DNA of 64,000 nucleotides from assembly GCF_038957035.1 (NCBI RefSeq), contig NZ_CP152412.1:8242501-8306500 (forward strand). Direction: 5' to 3'. A program made the position numbers and the translations under genes. The notes beneath the pieces were generated by a model. It was not told the DNA's origin, made no database searches, and worked only from the letters and a program-made list of their open reading frames with translations. This DNA is from Bradyrhizobium sp. B097. Its GTDB lineage: Bacteria; Pseudomonadota; Alphaproteobacteria; Rhizobiales; Xanthobacteraceae. This document shows, one piece after another, positions 807 through 11,357 of the stretch. Position 1 is the first letter of the stretch, and each line of letters opens with the position of its first letter.

Positions 807-1472
807 ATGACCACCCTCATTTCACCTGAGCTCGCGGGCCTGCTCGACCGGCTGTTCGCGCAAGCTTCCGCCGCTGACGAGGAGACTCAGCTCGCGGTGG
901 CGGACCTTTCAAATGAGGAACAGGCGCGCCTGATGCGGAGCAAGACCGACTACCGCGCGCTCTACGGCCGCCTGAACAATGTGCCGCTCGCGGTCTCGCG
1001 CGAGACCGGCGCGCTGCTCTACATGCTGGCGCGCAGCGCGCGGGCGCGGAACATCGTCGAGTTCGGCACCTCATTCGGCATCTCGACGCTGCACCTCGCC
1101 GCCGCGCTGCGCGACAATGGCGGCGGCCGGCTGATCACCAGCGAGTTCGAACCGTCCAAGGTGCTGCGCGCCCGGGACAATCTCGTCGCCGGCGGCGTTG
1201 ACGACCTGGTCGAGATCCGCGAGGGCGACGCGCTGAAGACGCTGCGCACCGATCTGCCCGATACGATCGACCTCGTGCTGCTCGACGGCGCCAAGGCGCT
1301 CTACCCCGACATCCTCGATCTCGTGGAGCGCCGCTTGAAGCCGGGCGCCTTCGTCGTCGCCGACAATGCCGACCACAGCCCCGACTATCTGGCACGGGTG
1401 CGCTCGCCGGCGAGCGGCTATTTGTCGGTGCCGTTCGGCGGTGACGTCGAGCTGTCAATGCGGCTCGGCTGA
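807..1472 (+). CDS. Class I SAM-dependent O-methyltransferase
   Basis: 221 aa, similar in layout to the O-methyltransferase 3 / COG4122 family of cation-dependent small-molecule methyltransferases. The SAM-binding motif I (IVEFGTSFGIS) is at residues 83-93, an acidic residue pair follows the next strand (TSEFEPSK), and the LLDGAK motif supplies a likely metal-binding Asp. The short sequence DVELSMRLG closes the fold. The gene is divergent from the TetR regulator and behind the 739-760 palindrome, so it is probably induced by a small molecule that could also be its substrate class. Its last 18 bp overlap tail-to-tail with the next gene. Confidence 0.85.
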   Translation: MTTLISPELAGLLDRLFAQASAADEETQLAVADLSNEEQARLMRSKTDYRALYGRLNNVPLAVSRETGALLYMLARSARARNIVEFGTSFGISTLHLAAALRDNGGGRLITSEFEPSKVLRARDNLVAGGVDDLVEIREGDALKTLRTDLPDTIDLVLLDGAKALYPDILDLVERRLKPGAFVVADNADHSPDYLARVRSPASGYLSVPFGGDVELSMRLG

Positions 1473-2834
1473 CGCGGATGGCGAAAGAGCGCGCGATGCT
1501 GGGCCCTTGATCCTGTCGATCACTGCGGACAGCCGCGCGCGTTTTGCGGCATCGTCGACATACCCAAGGCTGGCGTTGAGGTCGCGAAGAACACTGCTCA
1601 CCTTCCATTTCGCTTGTCCCTCGGCAATCACCTGCACCGCCAACTCCTCGGCCTTGTCCGGGTCACCGAGATCGAACGCCGCTGCAAGCAGTGTCGGGCG
1701 CAGCCATTCGTCAGCGAGATTCAGCATCCTTGCGCGCTCACAAGCAGCGATCGCAGATCGTACGGCGTCTTGTGCAAGATTCTCATCACCCTTCTCGGCA
1801 CGGGCGCGATAGAGCCGAGGCAGATTGCTCGAGCAGTAATAGGCGTTGAGATCGAGCCGCATTCCTCGTTCATAGCAGTCGATCGCCTGGCCGCGGCGCT
1901 GCTGGCGATCGTTATCGTCCGTAGCCTCGTCGGCGAGGCGTTTATACCGACCGCCCATCAGGCCGAGACGCTCCGGAGTTGGCCCTGCGAAATCAATCAG
2001 TGTTTGAATTTCAGCAATGGCGTCGACGGGGTTGCCAACTTGAGCAAGTGCAAATGCACGATTTTCCTGCACTTCGGGCTCATCGGCGAAGCGCTCAGGA
2101 AGCTTGCATATGTAATCGAGCACCACGTTCCAGTCATCCTTGCCATCGACGCAGTCGCGCAACAGCAGCAACAACGCGAGCGCCTTCGAATAAGTGGCCG
2201 GGGGATTACCCTCCGCGGCGATCAACTCCAGGGAACGCTTCATGCGGTCTTTCTCAGCCGCTGCGCGCACCGCGCGTATCTTGGTCTGGAACGCAGCCTG
2301 CTCGGCGAGCTGGTCCCGCATCACGGTCGCCTTGCGTGGATCGACTTTGTCGGGATAACCCGGGATGGACTGGTGCATCGGCGAAATCCCCGCAGCGAGC
2401 CCTTTGATCGGCTCTTTGATCGCTGCCTGCATCGCGGCAGCGGTTACCTCGGTGATATCGCCCTCCGGCAGCGGATAGCGGACGGTCCGCATCTGGACGA
2501 CGTCGAACAATTGCTTGGACCAGTCGGCCGCAAGCAGGACGCATCCCGTCTTCTGCGATGCGTGGCGAATGCCGACCTCGTAATAGACGTTGCCGTTCGG
2601 AATCGTCATGTCGGCCAGCACGAGATCGGCGAAGTAGAGCCGCTCCAGCATCTCGCTGACGATCAACGCGCTGGTGTCCTGATCGGCGCGCACCGGCTGA
2701 TAGCCCAGTGCCTTGATGACCGGAACGTAAGCCCGATCCCAGAGCGCATTAAAATCGATCTCGGCCGGACCAAACTTGGGGTCGGCCTGGGTCGGCTTGC
2801 GACCGTAAGGCATGATCATGAAACAAGACGGCAT
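1455..2834 (-). CDS. TIR/deoxyribosyltransferase-like domain fused to TPR-type (DUF4071-like) region
   Basis: 459 aa, soluble. The N-terminus (about 1-130) opens with CFMIMPYG and contains ADLVLADM...NGNVYYEVGIRHA (D70, D75, N82, E86, H91). This is the signature of nucleoside-deoxyribosyltransferase/TIR-like folds, in which the Glu is a candidate catalytic residue acting on nucleotides. Residues from about 150 to 440 are helical with TPR-like repeats, including FAGPTPERLGLMGGRYKRLA, typical of the TRAF-binding-type DUF4071 region also known from animal ASK kinases. It is the last gene of an operon with SLOG and patatin genes, 12 bp after the SLOG stop. Role inferred: sensing or producing a nucleotide signal. 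The domain call is from motif reading only. Confidence 0.7.
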   Translation of the reverse strand: MPSCFMIMPYGRKPTQADPKFGPAEIDFNALWDRAYVPVIKALGYQPVRADQDTSALIVSEMLERLYFADLVLADMTIPNGNVYYEVGIRHASQKTGCVLLAADWSKQLFDVVQMRTVRYPLPEGDITEVTAAAMQAAIKEPIKGLAAGISPMHQSIPGYPDKVDPRKATVMRDQLAEQAAFQTKIRAVRAAAEKDRMKRSLELIAAEGNPPATYSKALALLLLLRDCVDGKDDWNVVLDYICKLPERFADEPEVQENRAFALAQVGNPVDAIAEIQTLIDFAGPTPERLGLMGGRYKRLADEATDDNDRQQRRGQAIDCYERGMRLDLNAYYCSSNLPRLYRARAEKGDENLAQDAVRSAIAACERARMLNLADEWLRPTLLAAAFDLGDPDKAEELAVQVIAEGQAKWKVSSVLRDLNASLGYVDDAAKRARLSAVIDRIKGPASRALSPSASAEPH

Positions 2835-2846
2835 CTTTCAAATCCT

Positions 2847-3431
2847 TCAGTCCCATAATTTTCTCGTATCCAGCCAGTAAATCCACGTCGTCTTGCGCCC
2901 CGCCTCTTCCATCAAATGCTTCGCACCGCCAGGGCCATCGCCGCCCTCGCCGTTCCAGAGGCAGATGAAGGCGATCTTCTCGTCGCCGAACCGGGCGGCG
3001 CGCGCCAGCATCCATTGATTGTCGCGCTCGTAGGCGTTCTCGCCAGCCGGCAGCGGCCCGAGTTCGTCGGGCATGACGTGGAGCGTCGCTTTCGATTTCG
3101 CGGCGAAATAGCGCGCACGCCAATCGCCGCCGGCGAAATCCACCGAGCCGGCGAGGAAGGTCGGCTCATCGAACGGAATATAGATTTCAAGCCGCATGCC
3201 CTGCGCGAGAGCGGCTTCCGCAAACAGGAGATCGCCACCGCAGGCCCCGCCGCAGATTGCGAGATCGCCTTCACGGACCCCGATCCGCACAAGCGCGTCG
3301 GCGATCGCAGCGGCCGCAGCGGGCTCCTTGTCCGGGGGAAAGCGTGGCGTCTTTCGATCTGGCGCATCGATCATGTGACCGCTGAAGAGAACCACTGTGT
3401 TCGGTGACTTGGCGTCTTGTTCCGTGGCCAT
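2847..3431 (-). CDS. SLOG-type nucleotide-binding protein
   Basis: 194 aa. A Rossmann-like N-terminal half shows LFSGHMID (residues 15-22), then GDLAICGGACGGDLLFAEAAL (56-75, Gly-rich phosphate loop plus Glu72), followed by a strand with IYIPFDEPTF. This order is characteristic of the SLOG/LOG superfamily, whose members bind or hydrolyse nucleotides and act as sensors in bacterial conflict systems. The start at 3431 is favoured over an in-frame ATG at 3449 because GAGGTG lies about 6 nt upstream. It sits between the patatin gene (113-bp gap) and the TPR protein (12-bp gap) on the same strand, so co-expression is likely. Ligand unknown. Confidence 0.75.
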   Translation of the reverse strand: MATEQDAKSPNTVVLFSGHMIDAPDRKTPRFPPDKEPAAAAAIADALVRIGVREGDLAICGGACGGDLLFAEAALAQGMRLEIYIPFDEPTFLAGSVDFAGGDWRARYFAAKSKATLHVMPDELGPLPAGENAYERDNQWMLARAARFGDEKIAFICLWNGEGGDGPGGAKHLMEEAGRKTTWIYWLDTRKLWD

Positions 3432-3543
3432 CGCGACACCTCGACTCATGATTGGATCATTGTGTCCAGGTGACGAACTTAGCTGATGGCGAATTCCTTG
3501 TCGAAGCCGGGATCCGCGTGTTGTGACGCCGCTGCGCGCGGCA

Positions 3544-4683
3544 CTACGTGAGATCGAAGGCCTGTGGGAAATGTTCCGGCTTGACCTGCTCCTTCGCGGC
3601 GAGCTGTCCGATCGCAGCGAGTTCGTCCATGTTCTTCGGGGCGTCCATCGCTGCGACCTTCGCAAGCGCGTCCGGCGTCCGATCGATGCGGAGCTTCTCC
3701 TTCAGCCAAGCCGCTTCCAGCAGCACGTTGTAGTGCGCATAGGTCGCGAGTTGCGGCCCGTTCTGGCTGTCCGCGATCATATCCGTCACCGCGCGATCGA
3801 TCGGCCACGGCGTCAGGCAATTGGTCAGCCATTGCAGCATGCCGTGATTGTGCCGGCTGCAATCGTCCATGAGCGATTGCAGCGAGCGCACACCCTGCTC
3901 CGCCGCCGGCATGTGAACGATCTGGTCGGTCGAATAGGTTGCCTTGAATACGCCGGTACCCGCCGAGATCAGCAGCAGCTTGTCCTTGCCGCTATGCCAG
4001 CGAAAGCCGTGGCCATGGAGTGCCGCGAGCATCAGCAGTTGCAGCGCCGGATCGTTGAACGGGCTGACGCCGCCGTCGACGAAGGCGCCGTTGACTGTGT
4101 GACCGTCGCGCGCCGAGATCGTGATCTCCTCCGGTTTGAAATAGGTTGGCGCCGCGGTGCTGGCGCGCACCACCTGGGTCAGCCGCAACGCGCCGTCCTG
4201 CTTGGCAAAGGGCGCGTCCGGATGATTGTGCAGCGGCCAGGGACTGCCGGTATCGAGCCGCTTGGTCATGATCATCAAGCCGGTGCGGATGTGGTCGCTG
4301 CCGAGCACCGTATCGGCGCCGAGTTGCGCATCGAGCGCACGCTGCAAGGCGTCGGAATTGAATTTCGGCGCCAGCAGCCCTCGCCGCCAGAACGATTCCT
4401 GAAAGATGTCCGTGCCGATCGAGCGATAGAGCTTCTTCAGGGCGTCGACGGTCATGCCGCAGGCCAGTCCGGCAGCGATGATCGATCCCGTCGAGGTACC
4501 GCCGATCAGATCGAAATAGTCGCACAGCAACAGGTCGTTGTTCTTGTACCGCTCGCGCAGCTGCGTCTCAATCGCGGCCAGATATTCGAGCGTCAGAATG
4601 CCGCGAATGCCGCCACCGTCGAGCGCCAAAATCCGCTTCGGTCCTGCTTCACGATCAAGATGCTGCTGCTTGGTCTTCGGCAT
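3544..4683 (-). CDS. Patatin-like phospholipase
   Basis: 379 aa. The oxyanion-hole loop DGGGIRG is at residues 22-28, the nucleophile elbow GGTSTG at 61-66 (Ser64) and the catalytic Asp in VDGG at 202-205 (D203), so the Ser-Asp dyad is intact. It is expected to hydrolyse membrane phospholipid acyl chains. The RASTAAPTYFKPEEI block is the family's conserved strand. It leads the operon with SLOG and TPR genes, resembling the CapV-type effectors of nucleotide-signalled immunity, although no CD-NTase synthase is present in the window. A GGGGGG tract 6-7 nt upstream supports the ATG at 4683. Confidence 0.88.
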   Translation of the reverse strand: MPKTKQQHLDREAGPKRILALDGGGIRGILTLEYLAAIETQLRERYKNNDLLLCDYFDLIGGTSTGSIIAAGLACGMTVDALKKLYRSIGTDIFQESFWRRGLLAPKFNSDALQRALDAQLGADTVLGSDHIRTGLMIMTKRLDTGSPWPLHNHPDAPFAKQDGALRLTQVVRASTAAPTYFKPEEITISARDGHTVNGAFVDGGVSPFNDPALQLLMLAALHGHGFRWHSGKDKLLLISAGTGVFKATYSTDQIVHMPAAEQGVRSLQSLMDDCSRHNHGMLQWLTNCLTPWPIDRAVTDMIADSQNGPQLATYAHYNVLLEAAWLKEKLRIDRTPDALAKVAAMDAPKNMDELAAIGQLAAKEQVKPEHFPQAFDLT

Positions 4684-4892
4684 GATTGCCCCCCGACTAT
4701 GACTTTTGCTGATCTCGATACGGCCGGCCGATCACGGCCGAAGGCTCAATTGATCGTGCATCCAGGCGCGAACGGCGCCAGGCCATGAAATGAAGCGATG
4801 CGTTCAAATCGACACATCGGCTGAGTTTCGAAAAATTTTAGCCAGTCCGCACCGGAGCACGACAAGCATCCCGCGCCGGTCCCCTGGGTATC

Positions 4893-4920
4893 TTGCACAT
4901 GGCACACCCTAAGGTATAGT
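4893..4920 (+). promoter_or_regulatory. Sigma70-like promoter of the TIR gene, in the 398-bp divergent gap
   Basis: TTGCAC (4893-4898), a 16-bp spacer and TATAGT (4915-4920) form a good vegetative promoter reading toward the TIR gene, with an expected start near 4927 and a leader of about 155 nt. The whole gap 4684-5081 separates the divergent patatin and TIR genes; I saw no other gene in it. It is more AT-rich than its surroundings near 4835-4995. No clear promoter was seen for the leftward operon. Confidence 0.5.
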
Positions 4921-5081
4921 GAGATAAATCACTGGCAGGCGTTTTTTCTTTTTCGCGCCCGGCGATCGCACAATTCAGAGACGAGCTATCATTAAGTCCG
5001 CGGCAGGACGTGCAGCCGCCGCATTCGGCCGACGAGACACGGCCAGCCGTCGCATCAAATTCATGCAGATCGGAATTTGCC

Positions 5082-6506
5082 ATGCCAAATGATTTCTCGG
5101 TCTTTATCAGCCATCGCGCCGAAGACAGATTTCTCGCGCGCCTGTTGAAGGCGCGGCTCGAATATCTCAGCAGCCTGGACGGTCAGCGTTCGGTGGAGTG
5201 CTTTGTCTGCGAGGAAATTCCCGGTGGCACGGAATGGCGGCAATGGATGATCGACAACACGGCGAAGGCCGACTGCCTGATCTTCATTCACACCAATGCC
5301 GAGCACAATTGGACGTGGTGCGCGTCCGAGATCGCCCAGTTCGATGGCTACAAACGCGCGCTGAAGCTCATGTCAAAGGTGCTGTGGTTCTCGGTCGACA
5401 GTTCGCCGTCGTTTCCGATGCTGGCAGAGAACGAGTTTTACGGGATCGGCGAGGACGAGGTCCGGCGGTTTCTCGAAGATCTGTTCGTGCGGCCGACCTT
5501 CGGTGCCGTGCCGCTGCGGCCGAAACTGAACGCCAATCACGCCCGCGACTTCAACGAGGCGGTGAAGGACCTGCACGCGCAGTTCATGCAGATCACGCGC
5601 CCGGAAGAGCTGTTTCGTCTGCGGCTTCGCATCGTGTTCAGCGACGAGTTGTCGTTCCGGCAGAAGGCCGATGCGCTGAAGGCATTGCCGCCGTCAGACC
5701 GTGCGCGCGGATTCCTGACGGATGCCAGGCTGGAGGCGGATCCCGCCACCACCACACTGCTGTCCGGCCCCGATGCGGCTGATCTCGACTGGGAGGACCT
5801 GCTCAGCGCACAAAATCGGTATGACAGTGGCGCCTGGCTCGACGAGTTGACGAGCTACGTCGCGAACTCGTTTTCCGACGTGGACATTGCCAGCCGGCGA
5901 AACCGCGAGCAGGTCCTCAGTCCGATCTTCCGCGATTTGAAGCTGTATCAACCGGTCATCGCCCGGCTCGAATATCTCGACAACACGCCTTTCTCGGTCG
6001 TCATCATCTTCGTGCCGATGCCGCCATTCAGCGAGGATCCAAGACTGATGGTCGCGCAGAACATGCCGAAAGACATCGTCTTCCTCTCAATCCTGCTGCG
6101 ACTGGCGCGGCGCTTCCGATGGTCGTTTCTCGAGCCGCTGTACAACGCGGTCGAGAACCTGGACGATGACTTCAGCGCCAAGCGATGGGACGATCTGCTG
6201 CAGCGCTACCACGAATGCCTGGAAAACCTCGATTCGATCCTGCGACAGGGCAACATGCGCGAGCTCGAGACTGTCGGCGACATCAAGTCGACGATCAACA
6301 TCTCCGACGATTCTCTCTTGAAGGAGATGTTCAAGGATTGGGGGACGTTTCAGACCCGGCTTGCACAGGCCATCGAGAAGAAGTCGCCGGGCGATGTACG
6401 GCAGACGCTGGAGCCATGGCTCAAGCGCAACAAGGACTTCATGAAGCAACTGCTCGTCGAAACCCAGGGCAAGGTGGACAAGCTGCGGCCGCTGGAGGCC
6501 CATTAA
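5082..6506 (+). CDS. TIR-domain protein with uncharacterised C-terminal region
   Basis: 474 aa. The TIR domain (about 1-140) begins at once with DFSVFISHRAED, has the FVCEEIPGGTEW box, and the helix WTWCASEIAQF places Glu83 where bacterial TIR NADases carry the catalytic Glu. The remaining about 330 residues are soluble, partly helical and match nothing I recognise; they may be a sensor or oligomerisation module. The ATG at 5082 is chosen because the TIR fold starts there; an upstream GTG at 5010 would add 24 unrelated residues. It is divergent from the patatin-SLOG-TPR operon. Inferred role: NAD+-consuming or signalling component of the same module. Confidence 0.82.
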   Translation: MPNDFSVFISHRAEDRFLARLLKARLEYLSSLDGQRSVECFVCEEIPGGTEWRQWMIDNTAKADCLIFIHTNAEHNWTWCASEIAQFDGYKRALKLMSKVLWFSVDSSPSFPMLAENEFYGIGEDEVRRFLEDLFVRPTFGAVPLRPKLNANHARDFNEAVKDLHAQFMQITRPEELFRLRLRIVFSDELSFRQKADALKALPPSDRARGFLTDARLEADPATTTLLSGPDAADLDWEDLLSAQNRYDSGAWLDELTSYVANSFSDVDIASRRNREQVLSPIFRDLKLYQPVIARLEYLDNTPFSVVIIFVPMPPFSEDPRLMVAQNMPKDIVFLSILLRLARRFRWSFLEPLYNAVENLDDDFSAKRWDDLLQRYHECLENLDSILRQGNMRELETVGDIKSTINISDDSLLKEMFKDWGTFQTRLAQAIEKKSPGDVRQTLEPWLKRNKDFMKQLLVETQGKVDKLRPLEAH

Positions 6507-6521
6507 AAATGGTCGGCGGCA

Positions 6522-6538
6522 GGTCGGCGCGGCCGACC
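6522..6538. terminator. Short GC hairpin between convergent genes
   Basis: GGTCGGC, loop GCG, GCCGACC gives a 7-bp perfect stem in the 39-bp gap between the convergent TIR gene and the 6546 gene. There is no directly adjacent T-run, so it is a weak candidate for a bidirectional terminator. Confidence 0.3.
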
Positions 6539-6545
6539 CTTCCGC

Positions 6546-7283
6546 TCAGATCATCGAAGCGACGCGCTCGAGGCCGATCAGGCGTGCCAGCGAACGGACC
6601 TCGTTCTTCTGATCCTCGCGGAGCTGGAACAGCAGTGGCATCGCCGCCGACTTCAGCTGCTGGACTTCCTCGGAGTCGGGATCGATCGGCATGGTTCCCG
6701 ATGCGGGATCGCCCTGGCGCTTGGCGTGGATTTTGCGCGCGACGGCGCGCAGCGCAGTCTCAACCGCCGGCCAGTAATACTGCTGCGATGACGACAGCTT
6801 GAGCCGGTCCTTGATGCCGGCGATCTGCGCGTCGCTGAGCAGGGCGTAGGTCTTCTGCGGCGCCGGCTTGGCGGCCGCCTTGGGCTTCGGCAGCGCGGCG
6901 GGGGCGGCCGGCGCCGGCGCGGCGGGCTCGGCGATCTGCGGCTGGGCTGCGTCGACGGGGTCATTGATCTTCGGCAGGCCGATATCGGCAGGCTCGGCGG
7001 AGGCATAGGCCTGGCGCACGGTATCGGTCGCGCCCGGGATCGCGGCTTGCGCCCGCAGCAGGAGCGGCGACGGACTGGCGGGCGGCTCGGCCGGCCGCTG
7101 CGCCTCGAAGGCGGCCGTCGCGAGCGTCGTGACCGCAAGCTTGTCCTGCTTGCTGGCGCGATTGGCGACCGGACCAATGTCGGCCTGCGCCGCGGGCAGG
7201 CTGTCGCGGCCCAAAATGGCTGTTATCGCGGCGCCGGCGAGGAGGAAGCAGGTCAGCGCGGCGAGGGTGATGGCTCTGGTCAA
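6546..7283 (-). CDS. Proline/alanine-rich exported protein of unknown function
   Basis: 245 aa. The N-terminus (MTRAITLAALTCFLLAGAAI) is a signal peptide or membrane anchor. Residues about 60-140 are an Ala/Pro-rich linker, and the C-terminal 100 residues are helical with LSDAQIAGIKDRLKLSSSQ, reminiscent of the LTxxQ helical repeats of Spy/CpxP-like periplasmic proteins. The start is TTG at 7283; GGAATGGAG lies about 9 nt upstream and supports it. It is convergent with the TIR gene. Probably periplasmic; no enzymatic motif is visible. Confidence 0.6.
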   Translation of the reverse strand: MTRAITLAALTCFLLAGAAITAILGRDSLPAAQADIGPVANRASKQDKLAVTTLATAAFEAQRPAEPPASPSPLLLRAQAAIPGATDTVRQAYASAEPADIGLPKINDPVDAAQPQIAEPAAPAPAAPAALPKPKAAAKPAPQKTYALLSDAQIAGIKDRLKLSSSQQYYWPAVETALRAVARKIHAKRQGDPASGTMPIDPDSEEVQQLKSAAMPLLFQLREDQKNEVRSLARLIGLERVASMI

Positions 7284-8829: not shown

Positions 8830-10392
8830 ATGAGCAATCCGCTCTATGCATTTCCGGCGGTGTGCGAGCAGACCTTGCGGGCACTGGCGCGCTACCCGTC
8901 GCGGACGGCCTTCGCCTGGCCGGGCGGCTCGCTCAGCTATCAGGGCGCGACCGATTTGATTGGACGGATGCAGAGCGTGTTCATGCGGCTCGGCTTTGCG
9001 CCGGGCACCCGCGTCGCGCTGCTCACCGCCAACCGCGCCGACAGCTGGTGTGCCGGCGTCGCCGCGCAATTGTCGCGGCTCGCTATCACCTGGCTGCATC
9101 CGCTCGGCTCGCTCGACGACCAGCTGTTCCAGATCGAGGACTCCGAGGCCGAGATGCTGATCGTCGACGGCATCACGTTTCGCGATCGTGGCGGCGAGCT
9201 CGCCGCGAAGGCCGCCGGCCTGAAGACCGTGTTCACGCTCGGCCCAGCAAATTACGGCGCCGACCTGTTGCAGGTGATCGAGGATGCCGGCAGCGCGACC
9301 GCGAAGAACTTTGCCTGCGAAGACGACATCTCGACCCTGAACTACACCGGCGGCACGACCGGCAAATCCAAGGGCGCGCTGCGCTATCACCGCGAATATG
9401 GCGGCTTCGCCGCCGCCATCCTCGCCGACTTCGAGATTCCGGAGACGCCGCGCTACCTGACGGTGGCGCCAATCAGCCATGTCGCCGGCACCAAGGTGCT
9501 GCCGACGCTGATGCGCGGCGGCACCGTGCACATGCTGAAGGGGTTCGATCCAGAGGCCGTGTTCAAGACCATCGCGCGCGAGAAGATCAACTTCACGCTG
9601 TTCGTGCCGACCATGATCTATGTGATGCTGGATCATCCGGCGCTGCCCAAAACCGACCTCTCCTCGCTCGAGCTGTTGCTCTACGGCGCCTCGGCGATGT
9701 CGCCGAGCCGGCTGGTCGAAGGCATCGAGCGGATCGGCCCGGTGTTCTCGCAGCTCTACGGCCAGACCGAATGCTATCCGGTCTCTGTGCTGCGCAAGGC
9801 GGACCATGACCCGAAGACGCCGGAGCTGTTCCTGTCCTGCGGCTTCCCGATCACCGCCTGCCAGGTGAAAATCCTCGATCAGGACGACCAGGAGGTCGCG
9901 ACCGGTGAGGCCGGCGAGATCTGCGTGCGCGCCACGCATGTGATGGCCGAGTACTGGAAGCGGCCCGACATCACGGCTGAGACCCTGAAGAGCGGCTGGC
10001 TGCACACCGGCGACATCGCCCGCAAGGACGAGCGCGGCTACATGTTCATCCTCGACCGCAAGAAGGACATGATCGTCTCCGGCGGCTTCAACATCTTTCC
10101 ACGCGAAGTCGAGGATGTCTTGTCGCAGCACGCCGACGTCGCGATGGTCGCCGTGGTCGGCGTGCCCGACGACAAATGGGGCGAGGCCGTCACCGCCGTC
10201 GTGGTGGCACGCGAGGGCACTGTGCCCGACGCCGACGAGCTGATCAGCCTCGTGAAGGCAAAGAAGGGCTCGGCGCACGCACCGAAGCAGATCCAGTTCG
10301 TCAAGGAGCTGCCGATGACCGGCGTCGGCAAGATCGACAAGAAGGTGCTGAAGGCGCGCTTCTGGTCCGGCCGCGACCGCATGGTGGGGTGA
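8830..10392 (+). CDS. AMP-binding acyl-CoA synthetase
   Basis: 520 aa, ANL superfamily. The phosphate loop is LNYTGGTTGKSKG; then come LLYGASAMSP, QLYGQTECYP (aryl/acyl adenylate site), GWLHTGDIARKDERGY (hinge Asp) and the C-terminal GKIDKK catalytic Lys region. It is expected to activate a carboxylic acid to its CoA thioester through an acyl-AMP. The start at 8830 is supported by GGGAGGG about 9 nt upstream. It is divergent from the nitronate-monooxygenase gene. Substrate chain length cannot be read from the sequence. Confidence 0.9.
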   Translation: MSNPLYAFPAVCEQTLRALARYPSRTAFAWPGGSLSYQGATDLIGRMQSVFMRLGFAPGTRVALLTANRADSWCAGVAAQLSRLAITWLHPLGSLDDQLFQIEDSEAEMLIVDGITFRDRGGELAAKAAGLKTVFTLGPANYGADLLQVIEDAGSATAKNFACEDDISTLNYTGGTTGKSKGALRYHREYGGFAAAILADFEIPETPRYLTVAPISHVAGTKVLPTLMRGGTVHMLKGFDPEAVFKTIAREKINFTLFVPTMIYVMLDHPALPKTDLSSLELLLYGASAMSPSRLVEGIERIGPVFSQLYGQTECYPVSVLRKADHDPKTPELFLSCGFPITACQVKILDQDDQEVATGEAGEICVRATHVMAEYWKRPDITAETLKSGWLHTGDIARKDERGYMFILDRKKDMIVSGGFNIFPREVEDVLSQHADVAMVAVVGVPDDKWGEAVTAVVVAREGTVPDADELISLVKAKKGSAHAPKQIQFVKELPMTGVGKIDKKVLKARFWSGRDRMVG

Positions 10393-10420: not shown

Positions 10421-11357
10421 GAGAGCCTGACCGAAAAAGCAGTGAGTGATTTCAGTCGGCTGTGATTCCTTCGGATTTGCAAAGATTCGAGGGAGTGCAC
10501 CATGCCATGGACCAAAATCACTCGTGCTCAGTATCTGCGGAACGGACTGCGCTATGCAAGCGACATGACCGACGCGGAGTGGCGTCTGATAGCCAGGAAG
10601 TTGCCGGGTCGGCGTCGATTGGGCCGCCCGCGGAAGGTTGATCTGCGCAAGGTGGTCGAGGCCATTTTGTTCATTCTGTCCACCGGCTGCCAATGGCGCG
10701 CTCTGCCGCGGGAGTTCCCGCCGTACTCGACGGTGCAAGGTTATTTCTATACTTGGCGCGATACTCGCCGATGGCACAGGATCGTGAAGGCTCTGGTCCG
10801 ACAGGCACGGCGCAAACTCGGCCGCAAGCCGACACCGACGGCGGCCGTCATCGACAGTCAGAGCGCTTCGACGACACAAGCCGGCGGCCCGCGCGGCTTC
10901 GATCCGGGCAAACGTGTTAACGGACGTAAGCGGCACATCGTCACCGATACCAACGGTCTCTTGCTGGCCGTCCACGTTCACCCAGCCAATGTTCAGGACG
11001 TGCATGGTGCAGTCCCCTTACTGGAGCGCGTGCGAGAGCGCTTTCCGAAGCTGCGTCATGTCTTTGCTGACCGGGTTTATCGCGGAAAGCAGCTTGTTGG
11101 CGCGCTCTCCCATTGCGGGCCATGGACCATTGAGATCGTTCAGCGGCCGCCTGGGGTCAAAGGCTTCCAGCTCTTACCACGACGCTGGGTCGTCGAGCGC
11201 ACCTTCGCGTGGTTCGGCAGGTGTCGCCGCCTCTCCAGAGATTTCGAGGGCTCCGCCTCAACTGAGGTCGCCTGGCTCCTCGTAGCCCATCTCAGACTCT
11301 TGACCCGACGCCTCGCTACGCCCTGAAAATACTCAGCTCATTTGGAGTCAGACTCTC
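10421..11357 (+). mobile_element. IS5-family insertion sequence
   Basis: About 937 bp, bounded by imperfect inverted repeats: GAGAGCCTGAC at the left and, on the complementary strand at the right, GAGAGTCTGAC; about 25 of 35 terminal positions match. It contains one intact transposase gene. The flanks read ATCCT on the left and AGGAGGCC on the right, so the element interrupts a host palindromic repeat. The exact ends are uncertain by 2-3 bp because the flanking CTGAG/CTCAG is itself symmetric with the repeats. Confidence 0.8.
10502..11326 (+). CDS. IS5-family DDE transposase
   Basis: 274 aa, full length with no frameshift. The N-terminal DNA-binding part has MTDAEWRLIARKLPG and VVEAILFILSTGCQWRALP. 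Catalytic residues are in AVIDSQSAS (first Asp), HVFADRVYRGK (second Asp) and RWVVERTFAWFGRCRRL (Glu with the Y-R-E-K-like signature of this family). One continuous frame suggests the element could still be active. It is the only gene of the 10421-11357 insertion. Confidence 0.92.
   Translation: MPWTKITRAQYLRNGLRYASDMTDAEWRLIARKLPGRRRLGRPRKVDLRKVVEAILFILSTGCQWRALPREFPPYSTVQGYFYTWRDTRRWHRIVKALVRQARRKLGRKPTPTAAVIDSQSASTTQAGGPRGFDPGKRVNGRKRHIVTDTNGLLLAVHVHPANVQDVHGAVPLLERVRERFPKLRHVFADRVYRGKQLVGALSHCGPWTIEIVQRPPGVKGFQLLPRRWVVERTFAWFGRCRRLSRDFEGSASTEVAWLLVAHLRLLTRRLATP

Follow-up and report, generated by a model that had tools for sequence, protein, structure and literature searches.

The stretch analyzed here, called the window throughout, comprises 64,000 nucleotides of Bradyrhizobium sp. 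B097 (contig NZ_CP152412.1, positions 8,242,501 to 8,306,500), whose genome is a single contig of 9.25 Mb. Four adjacent genes at 1455-6506 encode a sensor protein combining an NDT-like domain with TPR-S, a protein of predicted SLOG fold, a patatin phospholipase and a TIR protein. An initial annotation, made from the sequence letters, had placed four genes at these coordinates and proposed that they form one nucleotide-signaled immune module; a check of the open reading frames (ORFs) of the window confirmed the positions. The gaps in the three-gene run on the minus strand measure 112 and 12 bases, so that the annotated value of 12 stands and that of 113 is off by one. The features are as follows, with identities given against L028, the nearest relative.

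1455..2834, minus strand: sensor protein, 459 amino acids, NDT/DNPH1-like N-domain plus TPR-S
Sensor residues ~1-112: NDT/DNPH1-like N-domain, catalytic-type Glu86 within NVYYEVG
1815..2111, minus strand: TPR-S domain of the sensor (residues 242-340, Pfam)
1455..2500, minus strand: divergent tract over the TPR part of the sensor, 69-83% identity, with 92-99% outside
2847..3431, minus strand: SLOG-fold protein, 194 amino acids, motif GGACGGD at residues 61-67
3544..4683, minus strand: CapV-like patatin phospholipase, 379 amino acids, Ser64 and Asp203
4684..5081: spacer of 398 bases between the divergent patatin and TIR genes, where promoters are putatively located
5082..6506, plus strand: accessory TIR protein, 474 amino acids, TIR domain at residues ~2-166, Glu83
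1484..6529: block missing as a unit in four relatives (G329, G237, G244, G200), breakpoints varying by at most 17 bases

The domain content given by the initial annotation (patatin, SLOG, an NDT/TIR-like domain with TPR repeats, and TIR with its glutamate) holds by Pfam, hhalign and predicted structures, the SLOG and TIR folds among them. In Pfam, the sensor matches TPR-S (PF20308, E 1.9e-16, 61 bits against a cut-off of 27.6) and MAP3K_TRAF_bd (PF13281, E 6.2e-9). The N-domain has no match in the Pfam scan. Aligned by hhalign with PF05014 domains from the genus, it proves NDT-like (E 1.6e-5, probability 79), none of the other eight pairs in that comparison doing better than E 0.0087; a profile search of the PDB adds a weak resemblance to DNPH1 (E from 0.009 upward). 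A TPR-S system requires a nucleotide- or NAD-processing enzyme, and both the NDT-like domain in the chain and the adjoining TIR gene are predicted to be of this type. A second NDT-TPR-S copy in another locus (L039:12926-14257) carries Gln where the catalytic-type Glu would stand (NVFYQVG) and lies beside a Glu-bearing copy.

The 194-residue protein has no Pfam family, its hhalign comparison with LOG (E 0.028) is poorer than its comparison with an unrelated TPR control (0.0087), and its sequence matches to DprA are weak (E 0.26). Structure alone settled its identity: the AlphaFold model, with a predicted local distance difference test score of 86.7, clearly matches YpsA and DprA, a predicted SLOG fold of the YpsA/DprA/LOG type, in which the GGACGGD motif is the sign of putative nucleotide binding. 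The 379-residue protein matches patatin (PF01734, E 2.3e-27) in Pfam and carries the motifs DGGGIRG, GTSTG (Ser64) and DGG (Asp203); its best solved relative is CapV (E 1.8e-24), and its top PADLOC matches (4.8e-50) are the phospholipase effectors of CBASS, the cyclic-oligonucleotide-based antiphage signaling systems. The TIR protein matches TIR_2 of Pfam at 29.5 bits, barely above the cut-off of 28, carries Glu83 within WCASE and shows a TIR fold in its predicted model. Ten relatives of its C-terminal part were found among the 7996 candidates that share most words with it and were scored.

Partner domains were counted within 8 kb of SLOG by profile searches of six-frame ORFs; a gene finder trained on eight stretches, one of which (window 8855-10390) was out of frame, served for maps and for picking proteins. 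Some of the loci counted had also gone into building the profiles, in the case of TIR L133, L156, L148, L151, L038 and L041. Pfam places TIR above its cut-off in L133, L156, L148, L151, L041, L134, L150, L039, L219, L220, L222, L223 and L224 and just below it in L038 (26.4 bits), and the TIR of L216 is not among the matches listed (25 of 69 families). Presence of the module is patchy, since SLOG occurs in just 24 of 146 genus genomes and 8 of 198 genomes of a family sample; in a phylum-wide sample it occurs in 16 of 398.

Among the 24 SLOG-positive genomes of the genus, patatin lies near SLOG in 20, an NDT-like domain in 20, both in 19, TIR in 16 and a cyclase in two, and in seven the NDT-like domain and SLOG share a single ORF. 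The five loci without both partners comprise one with SLOG alone (G216), one with patatin only (G282), two with a cyclase (G250, G251) and one with an NDT-like domain and no patatin (G275). Because both partners accompany SLOG in 19 of 24 genomes, against a chance of about 1.6% for patatin within 8 kb (from nine patatin domains in the strain's own 9.25 Mb), the association of the core genes exceeds chance, and the co-occurrence across relatives proposed initially as a check is borne out. Seven controls (six module-less loci and window 14001-64000) gave no match to the partner profiles.

Across the loci counted inside and outside this set, SLOG is accompanied by an NDT-like domain or by a class III cyclase, never by the two at once. 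Twenty further loci, taken for other reasons, hold an NDT-like domain in six, patatin in five, a cyclase in six and TIR in nine, and the 14 phylum-sample loci (16 positives minus two genus members) hold a cyclase in 12, an NDT-like domain in one (weak), TIR in six and patatin in none. Over all 58 loci, 27 have the NDT-like domain, 20 the cyclase, none both and 11 neither; patatin is present in 23 of the 27 NDT-like loci but in none of the 20 cyclase loci, and in two of the 11 with neither (G282, G175). Fisher's test on the first two proportions gives 1.3e-9, a value overstated by the relatedness of the loci. The Pfam family PF00211 confirms the cyclase in all seven profile-called chains scanned, and L223, which has TPR-S without cyclase by Pfam, was likewise omitted by the profile. 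Fusions of TPR-S, SLOG and class III cyclase occur in other Pseudomonadota (L212-L222, L043-L046), several with a TIR-TPR gene nearby; the three cyclase fusions scanned with PADLOC gave no match.

What is new here is this partner split together with a sharply bounded divergent tract in the TPR part of the sensor. Over 15 syntenic loci, mean nucleotide distance is 0.207 for the sensor and 0.242 for its TPR part, compared with 0.109 for SLOG, 0.104 for patatin and 0.086 for the right-hand flank gene; synonymous distance (dS) is 0.76 for the sensor, 0.41 for SLOG, 0.31 for patatin, TIR and the flank gene, and 0.28 for the O-methyltransferase gene. In the synonymous distances, and in the plasmid and NDT neighbor comparisons below, one member was kept of each same-genome pair (L031/L135, L030/L159, L035/L227, L036/L226). 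In 150-base blocks against L028, identity is 0.69-0.83 over 1451-2500 and 0.92-0.99 over 701-1450 and 2501-6850, the final block (0.39) falling past the end of L028. The same tract appears against L158 and L157, where the lows outside it reach 0.81 and 0.84. Its edge near 2500 corresponds to about residue 112, the end of the NDT-like domain. The correlation with flank-gene distances is poor for the TPR part (rho 0.35) and higher for patatin (0.73). The TPR parts of L031 and L034 are near-identical (0.039) while their SLOG distance is 0.112. Given the high synonymous distance of the sensor (0.76 against 0.28-0.41) and the sharp edges of the tract, the pattern fits best an exchange of divergent alleles. 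Within the tract, residues 281-300 and 321-340 are conserved (0.89 and 0.90) and residues 301-320 variable (0.50), a pattern to be expected of a fixed pocket set in a variable surface. Diversity is not confined to the sensor: the O-methyltransferase flank gene also varies at the protein level (mean identity 0.87, a figure to which the truncated L034 copy contributes).

The block is present or absent as a unit. Six module-less loci, each with the right-hand flank gene, were taken for comparison; in four of them (G329, G237, G244, G200) the flank gene is 80-94% identical and about 5.05 kb is missing as one piece, since bases up to 1466-1483 and from 6530-6544 of the window lie 17-84 bases apart. 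The other two (G267, G232) have other neighbors at the site, and the profiles find none of the module genes in them. Eleven named Bradyrhizobium loci are syntenic with the window. At the same site, G206 carries a 691-residue chain with NDT-like, TPR-S and SLOG parts together with the same patatin and the same TIR, and a fused sensor-SLOG chain with patatin recurs in G254, G315, G241, G260 and G167. The gammaproteobacterium Methyloprofundus has a row of a 658-residue fused chain, patatin and a pYEATS-TIR protein (L041:10449-11159), whose TIR is confirmed by Pfam, and a Rhizobium leguminosarum plasmid shows a different gene order that includes SLATT. The initial annotation had suggested a check for movement between loci: related cores are indeed located elsewhere, but within the Bradyrhizobium clade the cassette occupies a single fixed site, so that movement is not visible there.

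The TIR gene is recurrent yet dispensable. In 8 of the 24 loci of the genus the profile detects no TIR within 8 kb of SLOG; in L031 (same genome as G312) and L042 the gene is down to short pieces, and in L034 and L042 the O-methyltransferase gene is damaged. A remnant of the TIR C-terminus lies directly upstream of patatin, in like orientation, in G254, G315, G241 and G260 (E 9.7e-9, 1.9e-6, 1.1e-4 and 2.3e-4, the last two weak), and in G241 and G260 a TIR-endonuclease gene also occupies the TIR slot. The proposal of four genes as one system therefore stands for a three-gene obligate core and fails for TIR as a required member, which is broken, replaced or absent in many core-bearing loci. A fusion of TIR with a DNA/RNA non-specific endonuclease, encoded divergently from patatin, is seen in two fused-sensor loci (L133:9425-10582, L134:9416-10573), and G264 has an extra gene for a 981-residue TIR protein between the sensor and O-methyltransferase genes (L156:11875-14820).

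The wider class to which the sensor belongs also occurs on plasmids. Each query for NDT-TPR-S genes, which carry annotations such as TRAFs-binding domain-containing protein, found 55-56 plasmid records. In ten regions chosen from these by hand for variety, TIR is near in all 10 going by annotation and in 9 going by profile, SLATT is near in 6, and patatin and SLOG are near in none. Two further hand-picked sets comprise 25 SLOG plus NDT-like loci and 18 NDT-like loci of the genus without SLOG, most of the latter lacking the TPR part by profile. Patatin is present in 22 of the 25, against 0 of 28 in the plasmid and SLOG-less sets together, 11 of the 28 having the TPR part. Because the ten plasmid regions are without patatin and SLOG and six of them have SLATT, the window looks like a branch of the NDT-TPR-S class in which SLATT is replaced by SLOG and patatin. 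According to a 2019 paper, an Arcobacter plasmid has DUF4071, patatin and TIR genes, the last two interpreted as virulence genes (PMC6690266). Sensor relatives, chiefly of the NDT-like domain, are held by 55 viral contigs (L234-L288), some perhaps prophages, and no viral relatives of this SLOG stood behind 42 pattern matches.

Burroughs and Aravind reportedly predicted, in J Bacteriol in 2020, conflict systems built on TPR-S and NAD-derived signals, with an abstract that is said also to name pYEATS. The window resembles these systems in its TPR-S scaffold as predicted sensor, its TIR/NDT-type enzymes and its membrane effector, and in the pYEATS domain, fused to TIR, beside the Methyloprofundus relative; it differs in having SLOG and patatin in place of SLATT. 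Our literature search, with the full 2020 paper outside its reach, found no paper on patatin with SLOG and TPR-S and no experiment on this predicted class.

Other known systems share single elements with the module. With CBASS that use the CapV phospholipase it has in common a patatin effector of the same subfamily, but the window patatin falls below the NCBIfam CBASS_lipase cut-off (130 against 200 bits), and, as the initial annotation had held, no CD-NTase is present among the four module and eight flanking genes, the rest of the window lying outside that scan. Like Thoeris (ThsA SIR2-SLOG plus ThsB TIR), the window sets a TIR protein beside a SLOG-fold protein; unlike Thoeris, its type of SLOG stands alone or on the NDT-TPR-S chain, the effector is a patatin and TIR is dispensable, and no ThsA-type SIR2 or macro domain occurs in the four proteins or the scanned flanking genes. 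Pycsar-like class III cyclase systems are approached by the distant relatives that fuse TPR-S, SLOG and cyclase and have TIR near in 6 of 14 phylum loci, but in the window an NDT-like domain is present and a cyclase is absent. SPARTA, the short Argonaute and TIR-APAZ system, agrees with the TIR protein in fold and size and was suggested for it by the top Foldseek matches, aligned over about 416 columns with a template modeling score of 0.23. It was then dropped: a second structure aligner confines matches to residues 1-177, no APAZ chain is found by sequence profile, and none of the 8 genomes with this TIR has a match to the Piwi family (PF02171) of a short Argonaute partner, against one match among 14 control genomes.

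From gene content, folds, co-occurrence, fusion, the all-or-none block and the divergent tract, all of which the analysis shows, we infer an immune role, a messenger, the domains that would make and receive it, and a target of the TPR part. A possible reading, which we prefer and hold tentatively at somewhat below even chances, is a candidate nucleotide-signaled abortive-infection module, a SLOG/patatin variant of the predicted TPR-S/TIR class. The TPR part of the sensor would recognize a fast-changing trigger, probably phage-derived, whose binding would switch on the NDT/DNPH1-like domain in the same chain; this domain would cleave or swap a glycosidic bond and so produce a messenger of nucleotide type. 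That messenger would be bound by the SLOG protein, which some relatives carry fused to the sensor, and SLOG would relay the state to the CapV-like patatin, which would attack membrane lipids and thereby stop the infected cell. The TIR protein would play an accessory part, either as a source of signal or as an effector. A conserved core seems to consist of the NDT-like domain, SLOG and patatin, and the TPR part seems to face a quickly changing partner. Since a cyclase replaces it in relatives, the NDT-like domain, by analogy, is suggested to occupy the position of signal-maker. PMC7159879 and PMC9503650 assign TIR, DRHyd (NDT-like) and SLOG domains to nucleotide signaling and describe SLATT as a membrane effector gated by a signal; according to PMC11204291, the SLOG of ThsA has a pocket for 3' cyclic ADP-ribose and some ThsB proteins have an NDT/DNPH1-like active site. 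Term searches of PMC8195603 and PMC12419801 yielded nothing that bears directly on the module. The more specific claim of a separate kind of nucleotide-signaled immunity, in which the NDT/DNPH1-like glycosidase, and not a cyclase or TIR, makes a messenger that frees patatin via SLOG, the TPR part being a swapped recognition cassette separate from SLOG reading, is doubtful.

Several points weigh against the immune-module reading. Five of the 24 genus loci are without patatin, the NDT-like domain or both, and the patatin-SLOG loci G282 and G175 have no NDT-like domain nearby; patatin in these two loci with neither partner lowered our confidence. The locus counts are non-independent and mostly alphaproteobacterial. 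Positive selection on the sensor was not seen, the ratio of nonsynonymous to synonymous substitution (0.19) being equal to that of patatin. The NDT-like domain could destroy nucleotides instead of making a signal. In addition, Burroughs and Aravind (2020) are said to predict that TPR-S binds NAD-derived signals, in which case the receptor would be TPR-S and not SLOG.

The strongest rival, which we regard as somewhat unlikely, is a Thoeris-like scheme: TIR, on sensing infection, would convert NAD into a messenger of ADP-ribose type, whose receipt by SLOG and/or TPR-S would release patatin, and the NDT-like domain would tune or remove the signal. Pfam confirmation of the Methyloprofundus TIR raised our estimate of this scheme slightly, but the core persists where TIR is in pieces (L031, L042, G254, G315) or, by profile, absent. 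Improbable is a messenger-free arrangement, in which the NDT-like and TIR domains destroy nucleotides or NAD, patatin acts as another effector, and the role of SLOG and TPR-S is confined to regulation: NDT-like and TIR folds cleave glycosidic bonds in known relatives, and the TIR-endonuclease in the TIR slot of G241 and G260 looks effector-like, but the SLOG fold and the cyclase swap partners suggest signaling, and the patatin that most NDT-type loci carry as a separate gene points to the lipase as the step that kills. A stress or lipid-remodeling regulator of the host is very improbable, for although its neighbors are ordinary genes and one clade keeps it at a fixed site, the block is patchy (24 of 146 genus genomes) and all-or-none, its relatives are plasmid-borne, its sensor tract is divergent and its partners are effector-type.

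The initial interpretation is therefore supported in part: the locus is a real and coherent candidate immune module of a predicted kind, for which immunity and nucleotide signaling are the conjectural components, and it is of interest for the exchanged tract in the TPR part and for the swap between NDT-like domain and cyclase. If the preferred reading is true, the module would be a compact test case for the predicted class and a pointer to a possibly unstudied nucleotide messenger; strain-to-strain comparison should target the TPR part, and mutation the NDT-like domain, SLOG and patatin. TPR-S is reportedly the scaffold of the animal ASK (apoptosis signal-regulating kinase) signalosome (Burroughs and Aravind, 2020), so that its ligand matters beyond bacteria.

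Among the loci compared, the closest named record is Bradyrhizobium altum (SLOG 97%, TIR 99%). The TIR gene has an alternative open GTG start at 5010. The eight scanned flanking genes have ordinary metabolic and regulatory functions, one 245-residue flank gene having no family assigned in Pfam or NCBIfam, and an IS4/5-type transposase gene lies at window 10502-11326, about 4 kb from the module. On rhizobial plasmids (L289, L290, L294, L295), a set of genes annotated as TIR, 7-cyano-7-deazaguanine synthase, DNA lyase-type protein, TIR and sugar kinase recurs in divergent orientation from the NDT-TPR-S gene.

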